From positions 1 to 34,579 of the forward strand of contig JABDIY010000106.1 of the NCBI GenBank assembly GCA_013003535.1: a DNA stretch of 34,579 nt, in the 5' to 3' direction. The notes under the pieces are model-generated. The model ran no database searches and was not told the origin of the DNA. It worked only from the letters and a program-made list of their open reading frames with translations. The number at the start of each line of letters is the position of its first letter. Position 1 is the stretch's first letter. Positions 2,304 to 20,650 of the stretch are shown piece after piece. The stretch is from Acidimicrobiales bacterium. GTDB lineage: Bacteria; Actinomycetota; Acidimicrobiia; Acidimicrobiales; SZUA-35. Position numbers and translations under genes: made by a program.

Positions 2304-3248
2304 TTGCCAGTCGTGCTCCCTGAACCCCTCGTCCAGCTGTTCCGTGGCTTCTTCATGGGCGCAGCCGATATTGTGCCAGGCGTTTCGGGCGGCACCGTTG
2401 CACTGATCCTTGGGATCTACCGCCGTCTCGTCGACACGATCCACGACGGTGCGCACGCTCTCAAACAGTTGGTTACCGGCGACTTCAAGGGGGGCTTCGA
2501 ATCGCTGAAGGCGGTGGATTGGCTGTTCATCATTCCTCTTGGCGCGGGAGCACTTTCCGCTTTCATCGTTCTGCGCGGGCCGATGAAGGTGGCGCTGGAG
2601 GAACACTCCGAGACCACTGCGGCGGTATTCTGCGGCCTCGTTCTCGCCAGCTGCTGGTTGGTGTGGAACGAGATGAAACTGAAAGACCCCATCCGAATCG
2701 CAATCACGGCAGGTGTGGCCATCCCGGCGTTCGTTCTTTTGGGTTTCCAGAACGGCGCGGTATCCAACCCCAACATTTTCTTCTTCTTCGGAACCGGGGC
2801 CATCGCCATCTGCGCCATGATCTTGCCAGGCATCTCGGGCAGCTTCATCATGCTCATGCTGGGGATGTATGCGTCGATTCTCGGCGGTTCGGTTCCTGAG
2901 CTCGCAGTGTTTCTGTTGGGAGCCACCATCGGACTGGGGCTGTTCTCCACCGTGCTCACCTGGCTACTGGCGAACTACGAACAGACCGTGTTGGCTGCAC
3001 TCCTGGGCCTCATGCTGGGGTCATTCCGGGTCCTCTGGCCCTGGCCGAACGGCGTGGGCTACACGATCGAAGAAGGTGAATTGGAAACAGTAGTACGCGG
3101 CACCGGCCTGGAGCTGTGGCCCGACGTCGGTTCGTTGGTAAGCGCAGCAGTCGTAGCCGTTGTGGCCGCGGCCCTAACGGTCGTCATCGTGCACGTGGCG
3201 GCCCGCCTCAGTCCCGAGTTGAATGAACCTGTCGTCCTGGCCAGCTGA
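2304..3248 (+). CDS. DUF368 membrane protein, PopT-like polyprenyl-phosphate translocase candidate
   Basis: Integral membrane protein of 314 aa with about eight hydrophobic segments. It carries the DUF368 (PF04018) signature twice, as PGVSGGT near residues 25-31 and PGISGS near 175-180, each followed by a hydrophobic helix ending in LGIY or LGMY. This is the inverted-repeat look of the family. DUF368 proteins (PopT in Vibrio cholerae) were reported to return undecaprenyl phosphate across the membrane, so a role in recycling the lipid carrier for wall and glycan synthesis is inferred. The TTG at 2304 was chosen because it leaves a short N-terminus before the first motif. It has no clear ribosome binding site; GTG 2313 is an alternative. 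The next gene starts 11 nt downstream. Confidence 0.85.
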   Translation: MPVVLPEPLVQLFRGFFMGAADIVPGVSGGTVALILGIYRRLVDTIHDGAHALKQLVTGDFKGGFESLKAVDWLFIIPLGAGALSAFIVLRGPMKVALEEHSETTAAVFCGLVLASCWLVWNEMKLKDPIRIAITAGVAIPAFVLLGFQNGAVSNPNIFFFFGTGAIAICAMILPGISGSFIMLMLGMYASILGGSVPELAVFLLGATIGLGLFSTVLTWLLANYEQTVLAALLGLMLGSFRVLWPWPNGVGYTIEEGELETVVRGTGLELWPDVGSLVSAAVVAVVAAALTVVIVHVAARLSPELNEPVVLAS

Positions 3249-3259
3249 GCACAACGGAC

Positions 3260-3946
3260 ATGATTCCGCCAGCCCACTACGAACGGCGTCGACCAGTCCC
3301 TTCCGACACTGCAGCGTGGTCCGAGGCCCACCTCACCCTGGCGGTCACAGAGGCAGCCTCCATCCTGATCTGGGCCGCCATCCACCCCGAGGCCGACCAC
3401 GCGGAGCAGGTCTGCGTAGTGTGGCCCTTTGGTGGCCTGCCCGTGGTGATGGTGGAGGCCGACATCCCCATTCCAGCCGATCGTTGGGAGTTCCGCACCA
3501 GCGGGTTATGGGCCGAACAGGTCTGCGAGACCCCTCACCAACATTGGTCCTATGGTCTCGAAGCCTTCGCATTGGAACTGGACGACAGCGCCGAACTGAC
3601 CCGCACGGGTTACGGCACCCGAGTGCCCCTGGGATGGGAACTGGACTTCGAAGCAGACGGCAGACCCGCATGGTTGCTGACCGATTCCGCGCCGCTCGAG
3701 ATCGCCGGTGCCTACACCCAACCCGGCTCGCTCCATGGCCTGCTGTTGGACGCCGCTGGCGAACATTCCACCGAGGGGGCGGCGCAACGCTGGCACTGGT
3801 GGGGCACCAAACCGCTCAGCAACGCCGGAATCGGTCATTCGAACGACCAACCGGAACACCTGCAACTCCCACTTTCTGCCGGGCTCTACACCCTGACCCG
3901 TTGCACGGCGTCACTCCACCTCGCCCTGATGCCCGCCCTCGGTTGA
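3260..3946 (+). CDS. Conserved-looking hypothetical protein, 228 aa
   Basis: I do not recognise this family. The frame has strong high-GC third-position bias typical of a real actinobacterial gene, unlike the overlapping +1 frame over the same stretch. The product is soluble, acidic, rich in Trp, and apparently mostly beta-strand, with no signal peptide or membrane segment. Features include a WPFGGLPVV segment, QHWSYGLEAFALELDD and PLGWELDFEADG. The alternating wide strands suggest a lipocalin-like or CrtC-like barrel, but that is only an impression. It starts 11 nt after the DUF368 gene and probably shares its transcript. The last base of its TGA stop is the first base of the nested inverted-repeat array at 3946-4050, so its C-terminus may have been set by that element. 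Confidence 0.7.
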   Translation: MIPPAHYERRRPVPSDTAAWSEAHLTLAVTEAASILIWAAIHPEADHAEQVCVVWPFGGLPVVMVEADIPIPADRWEFRTSGLWAEQVCETPHQHWSYGLEAFALELDDSAELTRTGYGTRVPLGWELDFEADGRPAWLLTDSAPLEIAGAYTQPGSLHGLLLDAAGEHSTEGAAQRWHWWGTKPLSNAGIGHSNDQPEHLQLPLSAGLYTLTRCTASLHLALMPALG

Positions 3947-4050
3947 AATTCCTGTCAGGAGCCACAAACCCCCGAAATTCCTGTTGATAGCCACAGTTAT
4001 TGTGGCTATCAACAGGAATTTGCGTGGAATGTGGCTGGGAACAGGAATTT
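3946..4050. repeat. Nested inverted array of four 21-nt units (possible abutted IS21-like ends)
   Basis: Four copies of the unit AAATTCCTGT-N4-AGCCACA are present: forward at 3946-3966 (N4 CAGG) and 3975-3995 (TGAT), reverse at 4001-4021 (TGAT) and 4030-4050 (TCCC). Within each half the copies start 29 nt apart with an 8-nt spacer. The two inner copies form a perfect 21-bp inverted repeat around the 5-nt centre GTTAT. Read outward from the centre, each half begins with TGTGG and carries two direct subrepeats, the layout known for IS21-family ends (5'-TG...CA-3' with multiple internal repeats). The structure therefore resembles a right end joined to a left end across 5 bp, but no transposase gene is present. 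As RNA the inner pair would form a very stable hairpin and could also stop transcription from either side. Confidence 0.75.
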
Positions 4051-4079
4051 GACCAGGGGGCGGCGACAACAGGGACCAG

Positions 4080-5813
4080 GTGGTGGGAGTATCCTCACCC
4101 GGAGTGTCTGATGCGCCCAACAACCTTGACGGCACGGAGGCCGCATTACGCCGGCTGAGTCAATCGCTGTCCGACCTTCCGTTGGTCTTTGACCTGGAAG
4201 GCTCCGATTATGCCCGCGCTGTGGCCACCGAACTGCGCGATCAGATCGATGACTACCTCATCCCTCGGATGAAGCGTCTCGACGCCCCTCTCCTCGCAGT
4301 CATGGGCGGCTCCACAGGCAGCGGCAAATCCACCATCACCAACACCTTGGCCGGTGCGGTGGTCTCCCGGTCCGGGGTGATCCGACCAACCACCATGGCC
4401 CCCACCCTGATCTGCCATCCCGAAGATGCCAGCTGGTTTGCTTCCGACGACGGCGGCGTTCTCGCCGGACTGCCGCGGGTTACCGGAGACGGCGAACCCA
4501 GCGGCCACGTGCTCAAGATCACCGAGGTGGGCACCATGACGCCCGGGCTCGCCATCATCGACGCCCCCGACATCGACTCGGTAGCCCAAGCCAACCGGGA
4601 GCTAGCGACCCAGCTGCTGGCCAGCGCCGACATGTGGCTGTTTACCACCACCGCCGTTCGGTACGCCGATGCCGTCCCGTGGGACTTCCTGCGCCGGGCC
4701 CGCGAGCGGGGCACGGCACTCAGTATCATCATCAACCGGATCCCCAACGGCGCTGCGGTAGAAGTCGTTCCTCACCTTGCGGAGATGATGGCCAAAGCCG
4801 GCTTCACCGACGTTCCCATCTTCCCGATCGAAGATGCCGACCTCACCCCCATCGGACTCCTTCCGGAGTCAGCGGTCACCGAGATCCGTGAACAGCTAGA
4901 GGGTTTGGCAGCCAGCGCCGACGAGCGGGCTGAGATCATTCGTCAGACGCTCGATGGTGCCCTTCGGTCCGTGCCCGCCCGGGCCGCCGTCGTCCACACT
5001 GCGGCGCGCAATCAAGATGCTGCCGTTGCGGAACTTAAGGGCGCTGTTGACCACCACTACAGCGAAGCTCGAGAGGACCTCCAGCGGGCCCTCACCGGCG
5101 GCACACTGCTGCGAAACGAAGTGCTGGATCGTTGGCAGGAACTGATCGGCGTCAACGAGATCCTCGGCCGGCTCCAGAGCTTCCTTGGACGAATTCGGGA
5201 TCGTCTGACCGCCGCCGTGACCGGCCGGGTGGCCGACACCCAGACCGTGCAAGGCGAAATCACCAACACCCTCGAACAGCTTCTGGTGGATCTGGCTGAC
5301 AACGCCGCCCTAGGCGCAGTGGGCTCGTGGCGGCAACTTCCCGGCGGGCGACAAACGCTGGCCGCCGACACCAACCTGGAACGTTCCTCGCCGGAGTTCC
5401 GTGACCGCGCTGCGGCCGAGGTGCGGGCTTGGCAAGAAGAAGTCTTGGAACTGGTTCGCACAACAGCACAAGGCAAGCGCAACCTGGCCCGAGGTCTAGC
5501 CTTCGCCGTCAACAGCGTGGGAATCGCCCTGATGATCGTGATCTTTGCACAGACCGGAGGAGTGACCGGCGGCGAAGTGGCCGTCGCGGGTGGAACCGCC
5601 ACCGTCAGTCAGACGCTCCTCAACGCCATATTCGGCGAACAGGCCGTACGGGACCTGGCCCAAACCGCTCGGAAAGGGCTGCTGGCCCGCGCCGGCTCCC
5701 TGCTCGACACCGACTCCAACCGATTTCTCGAGGCGCTCTGGTCCCAAGCCGGGCCGCCAGAACAGACGATGGAGCTGGAGAACGCCATCGAGACGTTCGA
5801 GGCGAGTCTGTGA
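4080..5813 (+). CDS. Dynamin-like membrane GTPase (first of a pair)
   Basis: GTPase-type P-loop protein, 577 aa. It has a Walker A/G1 motif GGSTGSGKS at residues 76-84, a switch-I-like RPTT at 102-105 and a G3-like DAPD at 161-164 (in place of DxxG). The segment where G4 would lie reads IINRIP (about 217-222) rather than NKxD, so base recognition is non-standard. A long alpha-helical middle region follows. Around residues 473-525 a hydrophobic segment and a Gly/Ala-rich stretch suggest membrane insertion. The sequence style (DAPDIDSV, then WLFTTTAVRYADAVPW) matches actinobacterial dynamin-family proteins encoded beside YfjP-like GTPases, as here. GTG 4080 gives the longest protein; GTG 4104 is also possible and neither has a strong ribosome binding site. 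Membrane remodelling is inferred. Confidence 0.8.
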   Translation: MVGVSSPGVSDAPNNLDGTEAALRRLSQSLSDLPLVFDLEGSDYARAVATELRDQIDDYLIPRMKRLDAPLLAVMGGSTGSGKSTITNTLAGAVVSRSGVIRPTTMAPTLICHPEDASWFASDDGGVLAGLPRVTGDGEPSGHVLKITEVGTMTPGLAIIDAPDIDSVAQANRELATQLLASADMWLFTTTAVRYADAVPWDFLRRARERGTALSIIINRIPNGAAVEVVPHLAEMMAKAGFTDVPIFPIEDADLTPIGLLPESAVTEIREQLEGLAASADERAEIIRQTLDGALRSVPARAAVVHTAARNQDAAVAELKGAVDHHYSEAREDLQRALTGGTLLRNEVLDRWQELIGVNEILGRLQSFLGRIRDRLTAAVTGRVADTQTVQGEITNTLEQLLVDLADNAALGAVGSWRQLPGGRQTLAADTNLERSSPEFRDRAAAEVRAWQEEVLELVRTTAQGKRNLARGLAFAVNSVGIALMIVIFAQTGGVTGGEVAVAGGTATVSQTLLNAIFGEQAVRDLAQTARKGLLARAGSLLDTDSNRFLEALWSQAGPPEQTMELENAIETFEASL

Positions 5814-10063: not shown

Positions 10064-11065
10064 CTAGGTACGGACTCGGCCCCAGTCGGCTTCCTTGGGC
10101 GCTCGCACATGGCAGGCGGCCTCGTGGGCGGATCCGACCGAAACGAGCGGCGGCTGCTCACTGACACACGAGGTGGTGTTGGCAACCGGGCAACGGGGAT
10201 GAAAGCGGCACCCGCTCGGCGGGTTGAGTGGGCTGGGGACATCGCCTTCCAGGATCACCCGATCCTTGCGGCGGGTGGGATCGAGCACCGGAATCGCCGA
10301 CATCAGCGCCTGCGTGTACGGATGAACGCAGGAGTCGAAGAGGTCATTGCGGCTGCTGGTTTCGGCGATACGACCCAAATACATGACCGAGATCCGGTCA
10401 CACAGATGTTCCACCACACCCAGGTTGTGGGCGATGAACAACATGGTGAGACCCAGTTCAACCTGAAGATCTTTCAGCAAGTTGAGAATCTGGCTCTGAA
10501 TACTGACGTCCAGCGCCGAAACGGGTTCATCGAGCACCAGGAACGACGGGTTCACGGCGAGCGCCCGGGCAATGCCCACGCGCTGGCGTTGACCGCCGGA
10601 AAACTCGTGCGGGAAGCGACGGGCGTGGTAGCTCTCCAAGCCCACCAGTTCCAACATCTCATTCACTCGTTTGGCACGCTGATCGGGATCGAGGCCCTGC
10701 ACGCGGAGCCCTTCGGCGATGCTGCCGCCCACGGTGGTGCGGGGGTCGAGAGAGCTGAACGGGTCTTGGAAGATCAGCTGCATCTTGGCTCGGAGCGGAC
10801 GCATCTCCTTGGTGGACAGGTTGGTGATGTCTTGCCCGTCGAAACGAATCGTTCCCCGGTCGGGATCTTCCAGTCGTAGGATCGCTCGTCCCAGGGTGGA
10901 TTTACCGCACCCGGACTCCCCCACCAGGCCCAGCGTTTCGCCCCGTTCGATCGTGAGGCTCACTCCGTCCACCGCTCTCACCAGGCCGCCCTTGGAGCGG
11001 AACCCGCCCCCTGAGACAGCGTAGGTTTTCACCAGATCGGTGACCTCCAGCAGCGGATCACTCAT
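10064..11065 (-). CDS. oppF: Peptide/nickel-type ABC importer ATPase (OppF/DppF-like)
   Basis: Second ATPase of the importer, 333 aa. Walker A GESGCGKST is at residues 49-57, the Q-loop sits in LIFQDPFSSLDPR, the signature FSGGQ is at 155-159, Walker B FLVLDE is at 175-180, and the switch His lies in IAHNLG. The C-terminal oligopeptide-ABC extension has four conserved Cys (SGCRFHPRCP, then TSC and AAC). Some relatives have been reported to bind an iron-sulfur cluster there; whether this one does is unknown. Its ATG overlaps the oppD stop by 4 nt (ATGA). It is the last gene of the five-gene opp unit. Confidence 0.93.
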   Translation of the reverse strand: MSDPLLEVTDLVKTYAVSGGGFRSKGGLVRAVDGVSLTIERGETLGLVGESGCGKSTLGRAILRLEDPDRGTIRFDGQDITNLSTKEMRPLRAKMQLIFQDPFSSLDPRTTVGGSIAEGLRVQGLDPDQRAKRVNEMLELVGLESYHARRFPHEFSGGQRQRVGIARALAVNPSFLVLDEPVSALDVSIQSQILNLLKDLQVELGLTMLFIAHNLGVVEHLCDRISVMYLGRIAETSSRNDLFDSCVHPYTQALMSAIPVLDPTRRKDRVILEGDVPSPLNPPSGCRFHPRCPVANTTSCVSEQPPLVSVGSAHEAACHVRAPKEADWGRVRT

Positions 11066-12114
11066 GATGCTCCGTCTGCCGTCGGATCGGGTTCTTCAAA
11101 GAGCCAGCACCGCACCTTGCGACCGGGCGAGATTTGCAGCAGATCGGGCTCCACCTCGGTGCACTTGGTGAGGTTGTGAGCGATGCGAGCCTCACAGCGG
11201 GGTGCGAACCGACAGCCCGGCGGCATGTCCACCAGATTGGGAACCCGGCCCGGAATCACGGTGAGCCGTTCCCGGCGCTCCCCCGGCATGGGGATCGAAC
11301 CGATCAGACCCTGGGTGTAAGGATGTTGGGGATCCGCGAAGAGCTCGTTGGTTGGAGATTCCTCGACGATCTGGCCGGCGTACATGACGGCAACGCGGTC
11401 GGCGGTTTCGGCAACCACACCGAGGTCGTGGGTGATCAGAAGGATGGCAGTGCCGAGCTCGTCCCGCATGCTGACCATGAGATCAAGGATCTGCGCCTGG
11501 ATCGTGACATCGAGAGCGGTGGTGGGTTCGTCGGCGATCAGCACGTCCGGTTTGCTGGCCAATGCCATGGCGATCATGACGCGCTGGGCCATACCGCCGG
11601 ACAACTCGTGCGGGTAGGCCTTGGCCCTGCTGGCCGGATCGGGGATCCCAACCTTCTCCAGCATCTCCACGGCCCGCTCGTTACGAACGGCCTTCTTCAA
11701 TGCCGTATGGGCGGCGTAGACCTCAGCGATCTGCTCACCGGCGCGAAAGACGGGGTTGAGCGAGGCATTGGGCTGTTGAAAGATCATGGAGATCCGATCG
11801 CCACGGATGTTCCGCATTTGCCGCTTGCTCATCTTGTCCAGACGCTGGCCGTCGAACATCACCTCGCCGGCGACGATCTTGCCCGGATCACTCACCAGCT
11901 GGAGTATGGACATCGACGTGACCGATTTCCCGGAGCCCGACTCGCCGACCAGGCCAACGATCTCGCCAGGTTTCAAAGACAGATCCACTCCGTCCACCGC
12001 CCTCACCTCGCCGGCTCTGGTGAAGAAGTAGGTCTTGAGACCGGTGACGTTGAGGATCGGCTCCTGTTGATCGCGCCGTTGCGTCGAGTCGGTGCTCACC
12101 GAGGTGTCGGTCAT
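11062..12114 (-). CDS. oppD: Peptide/nickel-type ABC importer ATPase (OppD/DppD-like)
   Basis: First ATPase of the importer, 350 aa. Walker A GESGSGKS is at residues 57-64, the Q-loop in [11 protein letters not shown], the signature LSGGM at 171-175, Walker B VLIADE at 191-196 and the switch His in ITHDLG. The C-terminal extension carries the paired-Cys pattern GCRFAPRC followed by two more Cys, as in oppF. The frame is open 50 codons further upstream, but that stretch lies over oppC and is Arg/Pro-rich, so it is antisense-type noise. The ATG at 12114 overlaps the oppC stop as ATGA and gives a normal family N-terminus. It should pair with OppF to power transport through OppB-OppC. Confidence 0.93.
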
Positions 12115-13046
12115 CGGTTCAACCGTGGGTCCATGGCGTCTCGGAGCCCGTCGCCGAGGAGGTTGAACGCCAGCACGTTCCACATGATGGCGATACCCGG
12201 GAAGAAGACGAGGTGGGGCGCGGTGAACACCTGGTTGCGTTCCGAAGCCAACATGGAACCCCACTCCGCCTGGGGTGGTTGGACGCCGAGCCCAAGGAAG
12301 GACAATGCGGCGATCTCCAGCACAGCACTGGCGATTCCGAGTGTGGCTTGCACAACCAGCGGCGTGAGCGAATTGGGGAGAATCCGACGGGTGAGGAGTC
12401 GGAAGGTGCTGACCCCCAGCACCCGGTCCGCCTTCACGAAGTCAGACTCGCGGACCGTGAGAACGCTGGAACGGACCACGCGCGCATACCCGGGGATTGT
12501 GACCACGGTGATGGCCAGGACGGCGTTGGTGAGGCCGCGCCCGAAGACGGTGACGATGAAGATGGCGAGAAGCAACGAGGGGAACGCCAGCAGCACGTCC
12601 ATCAGCCGCATCAGCACATTGTCGATCCAGCCTCCGAAGAAGCCAGCGATCAGACCCACCACCACGCCTACGAGCACGGCGAAGGTTACGGCTGCAACAC
12701 CAGCGGTCAACGAAACCCGGGCACCGTAGAAGATACGGCTGAGTACATCACGCCCGTTCCCGTCTATTCCAAGGATGTGCTGAGGCTGCTCACTGTCGCA
12801 ACCGAGAATATGGATGCACGGCGATTCTCGAGGCTGAACTCCTTCGGTGGAGAGCAGCACCTCGGTGGGGTCATATGGGGAGATGAGCGGGGCGAACAGG
12901 GCGATGAACACCAGAATCCCGAGCATCACTGCGCCCACCACCGCCGCCCGTTTGCGGAACAGTTCCTTGACCAGGTTGATGCCCAGTCCGCCCGAGGATG
13001 ATTGGGAGACCTCCAGCGGGTTGATGTCAACGGTCAGGTCGGTCAT
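12111..13046 (-). CDS. oppC: Peptide-type ABC importer permease (OppC/DppC-like)
   Basis: Inner-membrane permease of 311 aa. A cytoplasmic N-terminus is followed by a first membrane helix (about residues 34-55). An extracytoplasmic segment with two Cys (SPCIHILGCD) comes next, then HILGIDGNGRDVLSRIFYGARVSL, a hallmark of OppC/DppC, and five further helices. The ATPase-coupling EAA-like loop is in DFVKADRVLGVSTFRLLTRRILPN. The ending with WGSMLASERN and MDPRLNR is normal for the family. Both ends overlap neighbours by 4 nt (oppB upstream, oppD downstream), so production is tightly coupled. Confidence 0.93.
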   Translation of the reverse strand: MTDLTVDINPLEVSQSSSGGLGINLVKELFRKRAAVVGAVMLGILVFIALFAPLISPYDPTEVLLSTEGVQPRESPCIHILGCDSEQPQHILGIDGNGRDVLSRIFYGARVSLTAGVAAVTFAVLVGVVVGLIAGFFGGWIDNVLMRLMDVLLAFPSLLLAIFIVTVFGRGLTNAVLAITVVTIPGYARVVRSSVLTVRESDFVKADRVLGVSTFRLLTRRILPNSLTPLVVQATLGIASAVLEIAALSFLGLGVQPPQAEWGSMLASERNQVFTAPHLVFFPGIAIMWNVLAFNLLGDGLRDAMDPRLNR

Positions 13047-14104
13047 GACACTCTCACTCGGGGATCCAGATAGGTGTAGAGAACGTCGACCAGCAGGTTG
13101 ACCAACACGAACACGAAAGCGATGAACAAGGTGAAGCCCTGGACCACCGGGTAGTCGCGGGCCTCGATGGCATCGAACAAGGTCTTACCGACCCCGCTGA
13201 GGTTGAAAATCGTCTCGGTGAGAATGGCGCCGCCCAGAAGCGCACCCAGCGAGAGACCGATAACTGTGATCACCGGCAGGAGGGCATTGCGGAGGGCGTG
13301 ACGAAGGATGACCACATTTTCCTTCAAGCCTTTGGCTCGAGCGGTTCGTACGTAATCCAGACCCAGCACGTCCAAGAGGCTGGATCGGGTCATGCGTGCA
13401 ATGATGGCCATTGGAATTGTTGCCAGCGCCAGCGCAGGAAGAATCATATGCGACGTTGCACTCCAGAATACCTCCCAGTTGAGCGTGAGCATCCCGTTGA
13501 GAATCTCCATGTTGGAGATGAACTCGAAGATCCCGATCTCGGGTAGCCCCCATTTTTCATAAAACGGTTCGGGGATCATTCCGGCTTTCAACCGACCTGA
13601 CGGTGGCAGGAACAACGGTGTGTCCTGAAGGACAACGGCAAAGAGATACTGCAGCATCAACCCCAGCCAGAAAACGGGCATGGAGACGCCGGTGTTGGCG
13701 AACACCATGGTCACAACGTCCAACTTGGAGTTGTGGCGGTACGCGGACATCACCCCCAAAGGAATCCCGATGAGGACTGCGATGAACAGGGCGGCCAGCG
13801 TCAGCTCCACCGTGGTGGGCAGACGTTCTTTCAGCAACGTGGTGACCGGCTTGCTGAATCGCAGCGAGTCGCCCAGGTCCCCCTGGGCGACATCGCCAAG
13901 ATAAATCCCTAGCTGCGTGACGATCGGTTCGTCCAAACCGAACCGTTCGTTGTAGGCATCACACAATTCCTCGGTCGCCCGCTCCCCCAGCGCCAGCAGG
14001 CACGGATCCCCAGGGATCAAGCGAGCGATAGAGAAGACCAGCAGCAGGATGCCCAGCAGAACCGGGACAGCCGACAGCAGGCGGCGGGCTATGAACCTAC
14101 CCAT
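13043..14104 (-). CDS. oppB: Peptide-type ABC importer permease (OppB/DppB-like)
   Basis: Inner-membrane permease of 353 aa, starting with the typical MGRFIARRLLSAVPVLLGI first helix and the RLIPGDP motif. Helices follow at about residues 100-125, 135-160 and further on. The EAA loop lies in DYVRTARAKGLKENVVILRHALRNALLPV, and the end VLYTYLDPRVRVS is normal for OppB/DppB. The loop between helices three and four is long (roughly residues 165-215), within the range seen for this group. The gene starts 20 nt after oppA and overlaps oppC by 4 nt. It forms the translocation pore with OppC. Confidence 0.93.
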   Translation of the reverse strand: MGRFIARRLLSAVPVLLGILLLVFSIARLIPGDPCLLALGERATEELCDAYNERFGLDEPIVTQLGIYLGDVAQGDLGDSLRFSKPVTTLLKERLPTTVELTLAALFIAVLIGIPLGVMSAYRHNSKLDVVTMVFANTGVSMPVFWLGLMLQYLFAVVLQDTPLFLPPSGRLKAGMIPEPFYEKWGLPEIGIFEFISNMEILNGMLTLNWEVFWSATSHMILPALALATIPMAIIARMTRSSLLDVLGLDYVRTARAKGLKENVVILRHALRNALLPVITVIGLSLGALLGGAILTETIFNLSGVGKTLFDAIEARDYPVVQGFTLFIAFVFVLVNLLVDVLYTYLDPRVRVS

Positions 14105-14124: not shown

Positions 14125-15867
14125 CTATTCGGCGTTCAGGAAGGCTCCGAAGTCGGCGTTGAAGTAGGTGAAGTTTCCGTCCCGACCGGTGTGCAGCGGG
14201 CTGGATGCATCCCACTGGGCGGACCAGGTGGTCACCACGTCGTTGGCATCGAAGGCAGAGCCATCGTGGAAGGTGACGCCAGGACGCAGGTTGAAGGTCC
14301 AGATCGTTCCGGTGTCGTCGGCAGACCACGTCTCGGCCAGGGCGGGCTGCACGGCGGTGCCGCCAACCTCGTAGGCCAGAAGTGATTCATTGACCTGCTC
14401 ACAAGCCCGGAGGGACTCGCCGTCGGTCTCATCGGCGCAATAGAGGCTGATGGGTTCGGCGTTCTGCATCCACACGATGGTGTCCCGACCGCCCGGATCC
14501 ATCACCGCAAAGACTTCGTTGCCGAGGGGGCTGGCCTGAGCGTTGGTGACGTCGGCCCGGAACGCTGTTCCCGAACCACCATGAGCCACCGGGATCATCG
14601 GCACGTGGGTCTTCAATGCTTCAGTGGCCTGCTCGTAGAGGTCCAGCCGGGTGTCAGCGTCCACCACCTGGCCGGCCTCGCTGAGGAGGTCGGTGATGTC
14701 GGAGAACTTTTCACCGAACTGATCGGAAGCGCCGATACCAAAGTGGAAGTCCAAGAAGTTGGTGGCGTCGGGATAGTCAGCGCCCCAGCCGAGGAGGTAC
14801 ATGGGGAGTTCACCAGCGTCAGAGGCATCCAGGAAGGCTCCTGATTCCATTTCCTCGATGTTCAGCGTGACCCCGATATCGGCCATCTGGGCCTGGATGT
14901 CGGTGGCGACGGTGGCCGGGTCCGGCAGGTAGCTGCGGACCACGTTGCGGTAACTCACCGTCACTTCAAATCCGTCCGGATAGCCGGCTTCAGCGAGAAG
15001 TTCCTTGGCGGCCTCGGGATCATAGTCATACCACGTGGGTTCGGGCGTGTAGCCGAAGATCGAGGACGGCAGGAATTGGTCTGCAACCTTGGAGCCCGGG
15101 GGGTAGAAGTTGTCTACCAAGCGCTGACGGTCGAGGCCCAGCGCCATCGCTTGGCGAACCTGCTCGTTGTCGAACGGTGGGAACGTGTTGTTGAACCCGA
15201 CATAGAAGATGTTGGTGCCCTCACGCTCGAGAAGCTGAAGATCACTGTCTGCTGCGATCACTTCGAAATCATCACGCCCGGGGTTGTCGATGCCGTCAAC
15301 CTGACCGGACTGCAGCTCCACCAGACGCTGAGCGGACTCTTCGCTCCAGCGGAACACCAAGGTTTCCGCATTGGCCGGCTCACCCCAGTAGTTGGGGTTG
15401 GCCGTATAGACCAGCTGGTTGCCACGTTCCCACTGGGCCACTTGGTAGGGACCGGTGCCGACCGGGGATTCCAGCAACTCAGTGCCGGTGCCGCCGGTTG
15501 CTTCCAGCACCTCGGAGGGGTGGATACCGAAGGCGGAGAATGCCACCTTGGACTCGAATGCCACGTCAGGGAAGCAGAGCTCGAACTGCACGGTGAGTTC
15601 ATCCACTGCGGTAATGCTCTTGAGTTCGCCGCCGTAGTCACAAGACTCTGCTGCGAGGCTCATGCCCTCGAAGTCCGATGGCGCGGCACCGTCATCAGTA
15701 GAACTGTCGTCAGCTGAACTGTCATCGGCGGAAGAATCATCTGCGGAGTCATCTGTTACCGCGGAATCGTCGGCGGTTCCATCTGCAGCCTCATCGCTGC
15801 CACCGCAAGCCGCGGCGACGAATGACAGTGCAAACAAAATCGCCAGTAGCGCTTTCGTACTTTTCAT
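14125..15867 (-). CDS. OppA/DppA-type solute-binding lipoprotein, circularly permuted
   Basis: Peptide-binding-type protein (SBP_bac_5) of 580 aa. Residues 1-20 form a lipoprotein signal peptide ending VAAA-C21, and residues 22-65 are a flexible Asp/Ser linker. The following order is unusual. Residues 66-460 match what is normally the middle and C-terminal part of DppA (TAVDELTVQFEL, SPVGTGPYQV, NPNYWG, VRQAMALGLDRQRLV, the final VPMIPVAHGG). Residues 462-580 match the normal mature N-terminus (DTIVWMQNAEPISLY, PALAETWS, FNLRPGVTFHDGSAFDANDVV, ending FTYFNADFGAFLNAE). Joining the end of this tail to residue 66 restores the usual order, so nothing is missing. It heads the opp operon behind a strong ribosome binding site and presumably feeds OppBCDF. 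Confidence 0.93.
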   Translation of the reverse strand: MKSTKALLAILFALSFVAAACGGSDEAADGTADDSAVTDDSADDSSADDSSADDSSTDDGAAPSDFEGMSLAAESCDYGGELKSITAVDELTVQFELCFPDVAFESKVAFSAFGIHPSEVLEATGGTGTELLESPVGTGPYQVAQWERGNQLVYTANPNYWGEPANAETLVFRWSEESAQRLVELQSGQVDGIDNPGRDDFEVIAADSDLQLLEREGTNIFYVGFNNTFPPFDNEQVRQAMALGLDRQRLVDNFYPPGSKVADQFLPSSIFGYTPEPTWYDYDPEAAKELLAEAGYPDGFEVTVSYRNVVRSYLPDPATVATDIQAQMADIGVTLNIEEMESGAFLDASDAGELPMYLLGWGADYPDATNFLDFHFGIGASDQFGEKFSDITDLLSEAGQVVDADTRLDLYEQATEALKTHVPMIPVAHGGSGTAFRADVTNAQASPLGNEVFAVMDPGGRDTIVWMQNAEPISLYCADETDGESLRACEQVNESLLAYEVGGTAVQPALAETWSADDTGTIWTFNLRPGVTFHDGSAFDANDVVTTWSAQWDASSPLHTGRDGNFTYFNADFGAFLNAE

Positions 15868-16074: not shown

Positions 16075-16767
16075 ATGACCACCTCCGAAGATATCGAATT
16101 CGCCTCGAACGGATCCACTGCGGCTGGTTATCTGGCCCTACCGGACGGCCCGGGGCCCGGTGTTCTGGTGATTCAGGAGTGGTGGGGGCTCAACTCGCAG
16201 ATTAAGCGCGTCGCCGACCGTTTGGCGGCGGAAGGTTTCGTGGCCCTGGCGCCAGATCTCTACCACGGCGAGTTGGCGGGGCACGATGAGATGGACAAGG
16301 CCGGCGAACTGATGAACGCCCTGCCGCCCGATCGTGCCGCCCGAGATATGAGCGGCGCCATCACCGCATTGCTGGATCGACCCGAAGTCACCGGCTCTGC
16401 CATTGGCGTGGTGGGGTTCTGCATGGGTGGAATGCTCAGCCTGATGATCAGTGCGCTGGAGGGGGACCGGGTAGCTGCGGCCGCCCCTCATTACGGCGCA
16501 CCGTTGGGCGACGGGGCACCGGACTGGTCCGGCCTCACTGCCAAGGTCCGCGGCCACTTCGCGGAAAACGACGACTTCTTCCCACCCGGGCCGGTGAAAG
16601 CGCTGGAGGACGAGCTGCAGGCCATGGGAAAAGACGTTGAATTCAAGGTCTATCCCGGCACCGGCCACGCGTTCGCCAACGAAGAAAACCCGCTGGGCAC
16701 ACACAACGCCGACGCGGCTGCCGCGGCTTGGACGCAAACATTGGAGCTGCTCCGCTCCAGCCTCTGA
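16075..16767 (+). CDS. Dienelactone hydrolase family protein
   Basis: Alpha/beta hydrolase of 230 aa, the normal length for the family. The nucleophile elbow GFCMGG places the catalytic Cys at 116. The acid is in HFAENDD (Asp 166 or 167) and the base in GTGHAF (His 198). The Glu that activates the Cys is in IQEWWGL (Glu 35). Family members open dienelactones in the chlorocatechol branch of aromatic breakdown, but many act on other esters, and no aromatic pathway genes are nearby. The frame is open 29 codons further upstream, but the ATG at 16075 gives the normal N-terminus. No Shine-Dalgarno is visible, so the message may be leaderless. It converges with the ABC exporter genes across a 37-nt gap. 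Confidence 0.9.
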   Translation: MTTSEDIEFASNGSTAAGYLALPDGPGPGVLVIQEWWGLNSQIKRVADRLAAEGFVALAPDLYHGELAGHDEMDKAGELMNALPPDRAARDMSGAITALLDRPEVTGSAIGVVGFCMGGMLSLMISALEGDRVAAAAPHYGAPLGDGAPDWSGLTAKVRGHFAENDDFFPPGPVKALEDELQAMGKDVEFKVYPGTGHAFANEENPLGTHNADAAAAAWTQTLELLRSSL

Positions 16768-16804: not shown

Positions 16805-18625
16805 CTATCTCGTAGCGCCGATCCAAGCCTTGTGGAGGCCCTGGTAGATACCGGGTTCGGCCACCAGAACCGCATGGGGGCCCATCTGTACCAACCGCCC
16901 GGCGTCGAACACCATCACCGTGTCGGCCGATTCGGCGGTAGCGAGACGGTGAGCGATCGATACCAAGGTGCGCCCCTCGGAGAGCCGTCGGATCGCGGCG
17001 GTGAGTGCGGCATCGGTCTCGGGATCCACGGCGCTAGTGGCCTCGTCCAGAATCAACAAGCCGGGGTCGGCCAACGCCGCCCGAATCAGGGCAACGAGCT
17101 GTCGTTCGCCCACGGAGAGATTGCCGCCCCGCTCCCCCACCTCGGTGGCCAATCCTTGGGGCAACTTGGCCACCCACCAGTCCAGTTTCAGAAGGCGGAT
17201 CGCGGCAGCGATGTCGGCATCGGTTGCGCCAGGCCGACCGAAGCGAAGGTTCTCCTTTATCGAAGTGTCGAACAGAAAGCCGTCCTGGGGGACCATCCGC
17301 ACGGTGTCATGCCGAGATTCGGGCGACAATTCCCGGAGCTCGATGCCGTTGAGACGGATTGAACCCGCCTGCGGATCGGCCAGGCGGCACAGCAGTTTGG
17401 CGAAGGTGGTTTTGCCGGATCCCGTCTCGCCCACGATCGCAACATTGCTGCCCGCCGGTATGTGGACCGTGACATCCCGTAGCACCACGGGACCCACCCG
17501 GTAGGAGAATTCGAGGCCTTCGACATCCACACGAACGGGCCCCGGGTCTGCGGTCGATCCGGTGGTCGGCTCGGGTACGTCGGTCTCCGAGTCGATCAGG
17601 TGCAGGATTTTCCGCCAGGCCGACACCGCTCCCTGCGTTTGGTCGAGCGTCTCGCCGAGGCGGGCGATGGGGCTGGAGAGCAGCGTGATCACGAAGAGCG
17701 ATGCTGCCAGTTCACCCACCTCCAGGCTCAGGGCGTCCCGGTAACGGATCCCCAGTACGAGCACGAGGGCGAACGCCATGACAGCTAGGAGGTCGGTGAT
17801 CACGAAGGTCATGGCCACGTAACGATTGGTGCGAATCTTGGTGCTGTATCGAAGGTCGATACTGTCGCTCAACTGGTTGGACATGCGCTGCTGGGCCCCA
17901 TAAGCCCTGATCACGGCGGCCCCGGTGACCGCCTCGCTGAATGTGCTCAGCATGGTCCCCACCGCGGTGCGGTGGTCATCGTTGGCGGCGAGCTGGCGGC
18001 GCTGGACCGTCCGGATCAGTGGAAGCGCAGGGATGAAACTCACGATCACGATCAGGGTCAGCGGCCAAGAGTAGAAGGCCAGCAGCCCGAAAAACCCCAT
18101 GATCAGAATCGGTTCGGTGACCCAGGCGAAGAACCCCCAGTTCACAAAGAGTGCCAAGGCCTCGACGTCGGCGGTCACCCGGGCCAGCAAGATTCCTTTG
18201 CGGGTCTCATTGTGGTCCGCCACCGACAACTCGTGGACCTTGGCGAATGCGCTGGTCCGAAGATGGAAGAGGGTTTCCTCGGCTCGATGAACAAGTCGGC
18301 GTTGGGTGAGCCAGCTAGCGACTCCCGATGCCAGCACGATCGTTATGGCCAGGATCACCTGCCCCGTGACTGCGCCAACGTCGATCAGTTCCGGATCGGC
18401 CAAGCCACCAACATCGATAGCCCGCTGAATAAGAACGGGAATCACCAGGCGACCCAAGGCCACCGACAGTCCCATGGACGCGGTGATCCACAGCCCTCGG
18501 CGTAGCGCCGGCGATGCGGCCATCCCTCGACGAACCACGCTGATGGCACCCTCGGATTCATCTGGTTCGTAAGGACTGCGGGCCGCTTCCTCCTCCAGGG
18601 GCAGGTCTGGTGCCAAGGCGGTCAT
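16805..18625 (-). CDS. Heterodimeric ABC exporter subunit with catalytic Walker B Glu
   Basis: Half-size ABC exporter of 606 aa: a six-helix transmembrane domain (about residues 45-340) and an ATPase domain. Walker A GETGSGKTT is around 398-406. The signature is non-canonical, LSVGE (about 502) instead of LSGGQ. Walker B LLILDEATS keeps the catalytic Glu, and the switch His is present in IAHRLAT. In heterodimeric exporters such as TM287/288 this is the pattern of the subunit providing the active Walker B site. Its start overlaps the stop of the partner gene by 4 nt. The substrate is unknown; drug, lipid or peptide export are all possible. Confidence 0.9.
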   Translation of the reverse strand: MTALAPDLPLEEEAARSPYEPDESEGAISVVRRGMAASPALRRGLWITASMGLSVALGRLVIPVLIQRAIDVGGLADPELIDVGAVTGQVILAITIVLASGVASWLTQRRLVHRAEETLFHLRTSAFAKVHELSVADHNETRKGILLARVTADVEALALFVNWGFFAWVTEPILIMGFFGLLAFYSWPLTLIVIVSFIPALPLIRTVQRRQLAANDDHRTAVGTMLSTFSEAVTGAAVIRAYGAQQRMSNQLSDSIDLRYSTKIRTNRYVAMTFVITDLLAVMAFALVLVLGIRYRDALSLEVGELAASLFVITLLSSPIARLGETLDQTQGAVSAWRKILHLIDSETDVPEPTTGSTADPGPVRVDVEGLEFSYRVGPVVLRDVTVHIPAGSNVAIVGETGSGKTTFAKLLCRLADPQAGSIRLNGIELRELSPESRHDTVRMVPQDGFLFDTSIKENLRFGRPGATDADIAAAIRLLKLDWWVAKLPQGLATEVGERGGNLSVGERQLVALIRAALADPGLLILDEATSAVDPETDAALTAAIRRLSEGRTLVSIAHRLATAESADTVMVFDAGRLVQMGPHAVLVAEPGIYQGLHKAWIGATR

Positions 18626-20523
18626 GTCGACAGCTCCTCGTACGCTTCGACCAACGCCTGATAGCCCGGGTGCGCAAGGAGCTCAGCGTGAGTGCCATCG
18701 GCGACCACCCGACCGCCGTCGAGATACACCACCCGGTCAGCGAGCTGAATGGTGGAGAGCCGCTGCGCCACTATCACGGCGGTGATACTCATCTGGGTGC
18801 GAAGAGCATCCAAGATTTGCTGCTCGATCACGGGGTCCACGGCGCTGGTTGCATCATCCAAGATGATGAGATCGGGCTGCCGATAAAGGGCTCTGGCCAA
18901 GGCGATGCGCTGGCGCTGACCACCGGAGAGCGTGACGCCGCGCTCGCCGACCACTGTTTTGAATCCCTCCGGCAGTTCGCCAACGAACTTGTCTGCAGAA
19001 GCCATTTCGGCGGCTCGTCGAACAGCCACCGGATCGGGGTTTGCCAACGCGATGTTCTCGGTAATTGAATCCGCGAAAAGGAAGGATTCCTGGAAGACCA
19101 GAGCGATCTGGTTTGCTCGCTCCGCATCAGTGAGGGCGGTGGGCGGCTGACCTTTGAATGACACAGTCCCCGTGGTTGGTTCCACCAGCCCGGCGAGCAA
19201 TGAACACAGCGTTGACTTTCCGGCCCCGGTACTCCCCACCAGTGCCACCACCTCGCCGGAGCGCACTTCGAAGGAGACATCGGCGAGCGTGGCAACCGCA
19301 GGAGCGGTGGACACGGAGCGGACAACCGCCGTTCCCGAGAGGAGTGCCTCGTCATCGTCCAGGCGTTCCGCCGACGGGTACGTGTACCCCACGGAATCCA
19401 CCCGAAGCAGCGGCGTGTCATCGGGCGGCGAGACAGACACGAACGATCTCACGTTCGGCTCGGGTAGGGGTTCGCGCCAAATCGTTTGGAGGCGCCGGTG
19501 GGACACCACCGATCGGGGAATCATCTCGAGGAAGTAGCCGAACACCGCCATCGGAACGGCGAGCAGCGTGAAGAGCGACGCCACCTGTACGAGGTCGCCC
19601 GAGGTCATGGCACCGGCTTGAATCCGGTAGGCCCCGATGAGGACCACGATGGCGATGCCCAGGTTGGGAAGCGACTGGAGGACCGCTTCGAAGACGGCCC
19701 GGATATTGCCTACCTGGATCCGGTTGTCCCGCAGTCCGGCGCTGGCGGTGTCGAATCGCTCGCTCTCCTCGTCTGCCCGCCCCAGCGTCTTGACGATGAG
19801 GGCGCCGTCGAAACTCTCGTGCGCAATACTGCTCACCCGACCGACGCCGGCTTGCACCAGCGCCGTTGGGCGCTCCACCCGAGAGGTGTAGATCTTGTTG
19901 ATCCCGTACATCGCCGGGAAGATCAGCAACGCCACCGCCGCGATGAGCGGGTCGACCGCAAAAAGGGACAGAGCGGAGAACACCATGAGGAAGATGACAC
20001 CCAAGCTGAACGGGACGGCATCCAGCACGCCCGTTGCCATGATCGTGTCGTTGTCAGCGTGAGCGAGCAGGCGGCCGGACATCGCCCGCTGATGGAATTC
20101 AAGCGGGAGACCGAGGTAATAGCGACCCAGGCGTTCCCGCAAGCTGCGCTCCACGCGCTGGGTTGTCATTGCGGCGAAGTAGCGACGCATCACGTTGCCA
20201 GCGAGGCGCAGTATCGCAACTGCGAGGACGCCGGCGATACCCAACAGGATCTGAGCTGCACCGATGGTGGAACTGTCGGCGAATGCCGGAATCACTACGT
20301 CATCCACAACCGATCCCACCACGATCGTGGAGCCAACGATCCCGAGCGCGGTGAGCAATGCACCGAACACCGCTACCGCCGCCGTGAGCGGGTGCATCCG
20401 ATACATGCGGTAGACCAGGCGCAGACCGAGACCCAGCATGGACTGGTTCGGTCGGTCGAGAGGGACATCCACTTCAATCACGGTAGCCCGGGCCCACCGG
20501 TCCACCGGAGGGATTTCGGACAC
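18622..20523 (-). CDS. Heterodimeric ABC exporter subunit with degenerate ATP site
   Basis: Half-size exporter of 633 aa from the preferred GTG, with a six-helix membrane domain and an ATPase domain. Walker A GSTGAGKST is near residue 429 and the signature is canonical (LSGGQRQR, near 531). Walker B reads LIILDDATS, so the catalytic Glu is Asp, and the switch His is replaced by Gln (VAQRLST). This complements the partner gene exactly. Between the aromatic A-loop (YTYPSAERL) and the LADVSFEV strand there is an extra segment of about 25 residues, rich in Asp, Ser and Val. GTG 20523 has AAGGTGG at 20528-20534 as ribosome binding site; a TTG at 20574 would add 17 residues with no such support. 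Confidence 0.88.
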   Translation of the reverse strand: MSEIPPVDRWARATVIEVDVPLDRPNQSMLGLGLRLVYRMYRMHPLTAAVAVFGALLTALGIVGSTIVVGSVVDDVVIPAFADSSTIGAAQILLGIAGVLAVAILRLAGNVMRRYFAAMTTQRVERSLRERLGRYYLGLPLEFHQRAMSGRLLAHADNDTIMATGVLDAVPFSLGVIFLMVFSALSLFAVDPLIAAVALLIFPAMYGINKIYTSRVERPTALVQAGVGRVSSIAHESFDGALIVKTLGRADEESERFDTASAGLRDNRIQVGNIRAVFEAVLQSLPNLGIAIVVLIGAYRIQAGAMTSGDLVQVASLFTLLAVPMAVFGYFLEMIPRSVVSHRRLQTIWREPLPEPNVRSFVSVSPPDDTPLLRVDSVGYTYPSAERLDDDEALLSGTAVVRSVSTAPAVATLADVSFEVRSGEVVALVGSTGAGKSTLCSLLAGLVEPTTGTVSFKGQPPTALTDAERANQIALVFQESFLFADSITENIALANPDPVAVRRAAEMASADKFVGELPEGFKTVVGERGVTLSGGQRQRIALARALYRQPDLIILDDATSAVDPVIEQQILDALRTQMSITAVIVAQRLSTIQLADRVVYLDGGRVVADGTHAELLAHPGYQALVEAYEELST

Positions 20524-20650
20524 CCCGCCACCTTGACGGCGCCCGCCCGGGTCGCGCGCTCGGCGGAAGGACAACCACCCTTTGTTATAGGTGAGAACAC
20601 ATCCCCATCGGGGTGCTGGTCGCCGACGATATGAGGATAGGTTGCACCAA

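Follow-up and report, generated by a model that had tools for sequence, protein, structure and literature searches.

A circularly permuted DppA-type binding lipoprotein of Acidimicrobiales and evidence for repeated rotation of cluster C binding proteins at one loop

A gene for a putative solute-binding lipoprotein in an Acidimicrobiales genome raises the question of whether its product is a member of the DppA family whose chain has been opened at a new place and closed at the old one. Natural circular permutations are uncommon. The gene lies at positions 14125–15867 on the minus strand of the window (the whole stretch of 34,579 nucleotides that was analyzed); it begins with ATG, is preceded immediately upstream by a GGAGGG ribosome-binding site, and encodes 580 amino acids. 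A preliminary description claimed that the conserved blocks of this protein stand in rotated order and that joining its end to its start restores the order of Escherichia coli DppA, with no block lost or doubled. Both claims were borne out. The only Pfam match, PF00496, scores 300 bits against a gathering cut-off of 32.4, placing the protein in SBP_bac_5 (cluster C), and the cluster B sugar-receptor homology that marks cluster Bc (the MglB-2 type) is absent from the Pfam result. PF00496 is matched in two stretches, profile positions 61–362 first and 2–52 after them, so that the usual block order of cluster C, which lies outside its formal definition, is not kept. Among solved structures, phmmer aligned residues 84–453 with residues 126–501 of E. 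coli DppA (1dpp) and residues 494–570 with residues 34–116, and similarly swapped double matches were found on HbpA, GbpA, and Yersinia pestis DppA. Compared with an unrotated homolog, the order is rotated and nothing is duplicated or missing, as a circular permutation requires at the level of sequence. Chance is excluded because both pieces far exceed the family cut-off and full-length colinear homologs occur in other genomes. There is also no hidden N-terminal block ahead of the start, since the reading frame closes 17 codons upstream of the ATG.

The chain can be divided into five parts, all encoded on the minus strand. A lipoprotein signal peptide (residues 1–21; 15805–15867) ends in a lipobox at Cys21, and its A20–C21 pair is invariant among 25 rotated homologs. 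It is followed by a low-complexity Asp/Ser linker (residues 22–66; 15670–15804), and both elements are as first described. Residues 82–455 (about 124–503 of E. coli DppA; 14503–15624) supply the middle and the C-terminus of the canonical fold; this part was delimited by phmmer and structural alignment and leads into the junction of the old C-terminus with the old N-terminus (residues 455–463, AVMDPGGRD; 14479–14505), which was placed from alignments and the sequence. The relocated N-terminal block (residues 463–580, about 1–116 of DppA; 14128–14481) then runs to the loop break, as judged from phmmer and a loop comparison with unrotated sisters. The preliminary description had put the block boundary at about residue 110; a rotation is present there, although the break falls slightly later, between E. 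coli DppA residues 116 and 126.

Structure prediction is consistent with a complete binding-protein fold. AlphaFold2, given the window protein and 24 rotated homologs, returned a model with a pLDDT of 84.4 and a pTM of 0.80, in which residues 21–63 alone fall below a pLDDT of 50, in keeping with a flexible linker. The moved block is well predicted across most of its length and is weakest at about 471–490 and 561–570. The best chains, DppA and GbpA, align with model residues 78–460 at Z ~30 and an rmsd of 1.8–2.4, which identifies the two-lobed DppA/OppA fold; residues 78–459 superimpose on 1dpp 120–507 with a Z of 30.2 and an rmsd of 2.4, and 382 residues align with GbpA with a Z of 30 and an rmsd of 1.8. 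The structural aligners used are sequential, and their coverage comprises about residues 68–460, with the moved block outside it. In DppA and OppA, both natural termini and the break site lie on lobe I. From pLDDT, pTM, and homology, the moved block would complete lobe I and not form the separate domain that the preliminary description named as a refuting outcome, because a pTM of 0.80 is hard to reach with a fifth of the chain unplaced. In this arrangement, the short turn MDPGGRD would connect the former N- and C-termini, neighbors on lobe I, and the chain would be opened instead in a lobe I surface loop (E. coli DppA 117–125) that separates the N-block from the next strand, with the fold, the cleft, and the dipeptide-contact residues presumably retained.

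How widely the rotated form occurs, and whether unrotated sisters exist, were questions raised by the preliminary description; the form proved to be widespread, and such sisters exist. Full-length colinear homologs of the window protein show 73% (G089), 50% (G016), and 49% (G037) identity. In a profile search of 395 sampled Acidimicrobiia genomes, about 54 (~14%, counted by hand) had a rotated match over the full length, and a hand count gave the rotated form in 33 of 251 sampled Chloroflexota genomes (~13%); among ~270 sampled genomes of Actinomycetota outside Acidimicrobiia it was found in one (G806). GTDB contigs were scanned with two junction motifs, [MV]Q[NG][AN]EPI[SG]L and DE[TS]DGESL, and 372 of 394 matches encode relatives, the best 80 of which are recorded as Actinomycetota or Chloroflexota. 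The rotated arrangement is common to many bacteria of these two phyla. Each of eight genomes searched whole carries one rotated copy alongside many canonical paralogs. Among 238 open reading frames with the middle part, a set that includes redundant loci, the N-block follows it in 168 and precedes it in 64, and intermediates with an N-block at both ends number zero.

Some members of the rotated family are unusual in themselves. One rotated type 1 gene (G472:C1:860490-862175) contains a single internal TAA stop, reflecting a pseudogene, a sequencing error, or recoding. Genome G570 has a normal type 1 copy and a second, very divergent one on a long branch (L201; G570:C23:49735-51285), for which a new function is possible. 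Two Ardenticatenia metagenome-assembled genomes (L089:4741-7533 and L088:4684-7533, both plus strand) encode a lipoprotein of ~940 amino acids in which the rotated family 5 binding protein is fused to a heme c domain (CTKCH, PF09098) and a family 3 amino-acid binding domain (PF00497); it is odd for a single chain to combine two binding proteins with a cytochrome-like domain.

The rotated proteins fall into two types. The window gene belongs to type 1. Type 2 comprises 13 sequences (L013, L016, L163, L164, L193-L200, and L204) with ~26% identity to the window protein; its closest solved relative is Mycobacterium tuberculosis DppA, in canonical order (35–140, then 150–534), and an AlphaFold2 model of type 2 (pLDDT 76, pTM 0.74) aligned best with DppE and M. 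tuberculosis DppA. The nearest relatives of type 2, L165 and L166, are unrotated and share 53–54% identity with L013 over the middle part and 60% over the N-block. In a tree of 70 proteins with both parts restored to canonical order, type 1 (support 100/100) and type 2 (100/98) each form one clade nested among canonical proteins, type 1 beside unrotated proteins resembling E. coli DppA and type 2 beside unrotated relatives of M. tuberculosis DppA. Careful trees of the type 2 set, built from the middle part, the N-block, or both, recovered type 2 as one clade, placed beside L165/L166 where resolved, with support of just 92/94 in the N-only tree. A reversion within type 2, hinted at by a split in quick single-part trees, was rejected, as the split is absent from the careful trees.

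The same loop is broken in both types. Type 1 proteins end in ...FTYFNADFGAFLNAE and start with ...ESCDYGGELKSITAVDELTV, and type 2 proteins end in ...FFANVVGYGDINEAEEGE and start with ...DGGLSGLALVDANTF, while unrotated L165 runs unbroken through this loop (...FYSIIAGYDEVNPAEGDPTAETLSGLAVVDDLTF). Likewise, the canonical sister L205 reads continuously as ...FGAYAGEEGSLWKGIEAVDEYTV, compared with a rotated end of FGAFLNAE, followed by the stop, and a rotated start of FEGMSLAAESCDYGGELKSITAVDELTV. The loop of the close unrotated sisters is thus the join of the two ends of the rotated protein.

Explanations that dispense with two permutations account poorly for these observations. An error of assembly, or a local rearrangement of the contig, was named in the preliminary description as an outcome that would overturn it, and the window is indeed a single contig in a draft assembly of 221. 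The identical order recurs, however, in independent genomes, in the isolate Ilumatobacter nonamiensis YM16-303 (L067), and on megabase-sized contigs such as those of L074 and L228; with these colinear homologs the error was rejected, and its probability is negligible. The protein might instead be a fusion, in which an N-terminally truncated binding protein acquired the N-block of another gene as an extra domain. The N-block does lie outside the sequential structural alignments, and for MglB-2 of Treponema the possibility that the moved part came from a foreign source has been weighed (PMC4990184). Against a fusion, trees of the N-block and of the middle part agree, with type 1 forming one clade in both and type 2 keeping the same canonical sisters; the moved block is the protein's sole N-block, leaving the canonical fold incomplete without it; and the pTM of the model would be hard to reach with 110 residues unplaced. 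This makes a fusion highly unlikely. The shared break site would fit a single ancient rotation, inherited by both types and followed by reversions to canonical order. Such a history has very little credibility: forcing all rotated proteins into one clade costs 252 log-likelihood units (AU p ~1e-109), and each type sits within its own canonical grade. With a single origin rejected under the model used, a verdict that only failure of that model or an unsampled bridge could overturn, there were at least two independent rotations, those of types 1 and 2, both at the same loop. The window gene itself is supported as a circularly permuted class C binding protein by sequence order, unrotated sisters, trees, and structure prediction. 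Taken with the predicted function discussed below, it is highly probable that this is a complete, functional cluster C binding protein with a circularly permuted chain that has arisen at least twice at one loop.

Circular permutation is commonly explained by tandem duplication, fusion, and trimming. For the rotated proteins, too, the simplest route would be duplication of a canonical gene in tandem, after which the copies were fused in frame and the outer pieces lost, twice or more. Genome G434 contains two canonical type 2 sister genes (L239:1323-3125 and 3129-5060, plus strand) that are 74% identical and arranged head to tail; they share a reading frame, and a single stop codon separates the two open frames. 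This pair could represent the raw material, or state, from which a permutation arises; no fused or half-trimmed intermediate of such a duplication was found. Type 1 would then have spread between Chloroflexota and Actinomycetota. It crosses the phylum boundary at least three times in a FastTree tree with phylum labels that were partly assigned in this analysis. An origin of type 1 in Chloroflexota, with later transfer, is likely, because most of the canonical proteins closest to type 1 on the tree were obtained in the Chloroflexota search.

The surroundings of the gene point to a role in peptide uptake. Downstream on the minus strand lie genes for a DppB-type permease (13043–14104), which retains scoop-loop residues Glu41 and Arg42, a DppC-type permease (12111–13046), a DppD-type ATPase (11062–12264, the true start probably near 12117), and a DppF-type ATPase (10064–11065), the last three being supported by operon order in relatives. 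Adjacent DppB, DppC, DppD, and DppF genes constitute a DppBCDF-type importer. Of 80 rotated loci, 72 have DppB as the next gene and most have DppC as well, with several of the others stopping at a contig edge. In E. coli DppA, the dipeptide is bound at its two ends by precursor residues R383 and D436, which then meet the DppB scoop loop (PMC12136057). By alignment, Arg311 (14935–14937, minus strand) corresponds to Arg355 (precursor Arg383), which binds the dipeptide carboxylate, and Asp364 (14776–14778, minus strand) to Asp408 (precursor Asp436), which binds the amino group; the ligand pair of DppA is thereby present, and both residues are invariant in 25 rotated type 1 homologs. The window protein scores 236.5 bits against the cut-off of 1005 of the DppA equivalog NF043070 and so falls outside it, though it probably works like DppA. 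Because R311/D364, DppB E41/R42, and the order of binding protein, DppB, and DppC are conserved, the rotated protein very probably takes part in the same transport cycle. Lipid on Cys21 and the flexible linker would tether it at its new N-terminus, and it would capture di- or short peptides, close, dock on DppBC, and release its ligand to the scoop for import by the DppB-DppC-DppD-DppF transporter of its own operon.

It is conceivable, with perhaps the best claim among the alternatives, that the same fold binds another ligand, such as glutathione, heme, or a different small molecule, given that GbpA and HbpA are among the closest solved structures and that cluster C ligands vary widely. Against this stands the invariance in type 1 of the Arg/Asp pair by which both ends of a dipeptide are recognized. 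Somewhat less likely is that the rotation was selected because it shifts where the protein is tethered to the membrane, a reason suggested for MglB-2 of Treponema (PMC4990184). A lipobox and linker were found by a strict pattern in 135 of 168 rotated proteins, the window protein included, but at least 18 Chloroflexota type 1 loci encode plain, cleavable-looking signal peptides and almost no linker, and canonical sisters are themselves often lipoproteins with similar linkers (median 53 versus 45.5 residues). Rotation needs no lipid tether, since these Chloroflexota proteins lack a lipobox and have almost no linker. Tether length was also rejected as a signature of rotation, as linkers are nearly alike and many rotated proteins are not lipoproteins. 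Rotated type 1 proteins with ordinary signal peptides and no lipobox include L076, L080, L091, L093, L096, L110, L117, and others from Chloroflexota. Most likely, then, the protein is a normally functioning dipeptide receptor that serves a DppBCDF importer and that originated through tandem duplication followed by trimming.

Comparison with known systems places the rotated proteins close to E. coli DppABCDF (NF043070; PDB 1dpp and 8z1y). Both parts of the chain are homologous to DppA, the R355/D408 pair and the DppB scoop E41/R42 are shared, and the operon order SBP-DppB-DppC-DppD-DppF is the same, whereas the window chain is rotated at 117–125 and belongs to a lipoprotein, E. coli DppA being a free periplasmic protein. 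The nearest relatives, i.e., the canonical sisters of type 1 (L205, L208, L209, L206-L213) and of type 2 (L165, L166), are unrotated, as is the type 2 relative M. tuberculosis DppA, Rv3666c (PDB 6e3d and 7jls). Permuted binding proteins are already known in cluster B. MglB-2 of Treponema pallidum (Tp0684), of "cluster Bc", is likewise a tethered ABC binding protein naturally permuted within its N-lobe and, like the window protein, has relatives in several bacteria; it differs in being a sugar receptor of an unrelated family, in needing a fourth hinge crossing, and in having a moved part barely recognizable by sequence (13%) (PMC4990184). Open-license papers on permuted solute- or oligopeptide-binding proteins yielded MglB-2 and engineered sensors only, and no report of a natural permuted cluster C binding protein was found among them, with an earlier report elsewhere being possible. 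The phmmer list of solved structures likewise contains no PDB chain that is colinear over both parts.

The case is of greater interest than first expected because the event is repeated and close unrotated sisters exist. A broader reading, favored with some reserve, is that cluster C proteins have repeatedly been permuted at one preferred loop, forming a "cluster Cc" by parallel permutation under selection, with no one-off accident involved. If so, the selected property could be the site of the tether, the order of folding, or an N-terminus freed for fusions. Permutations that recur at one site and have close unrotated sisters are of great use for direct tests. Unrotated L165 and rotated L013, for example, are 54–60% identical over their shared parts, and comparing such pairs would show how permutation affects folding, ligand affinity, transporter coupling, and the opening and closing of the protein. 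The loop also represents a naturally tolerated site for building permuted peptide sensors. For annotation, a plain SBP_bac_5 profile match hides the rotated topology, and any analysis trimmed to N-terminal blocks will misread these proteins.

Elsewhere in the window, beyond a dienelactone-hydrolase-like gene ending at 16767, two adjacent genes for ABC half-transporters (16805–18625 and 18622–20574, minus strand) overlap at their ends and probably encode a heterodimeric exporter.
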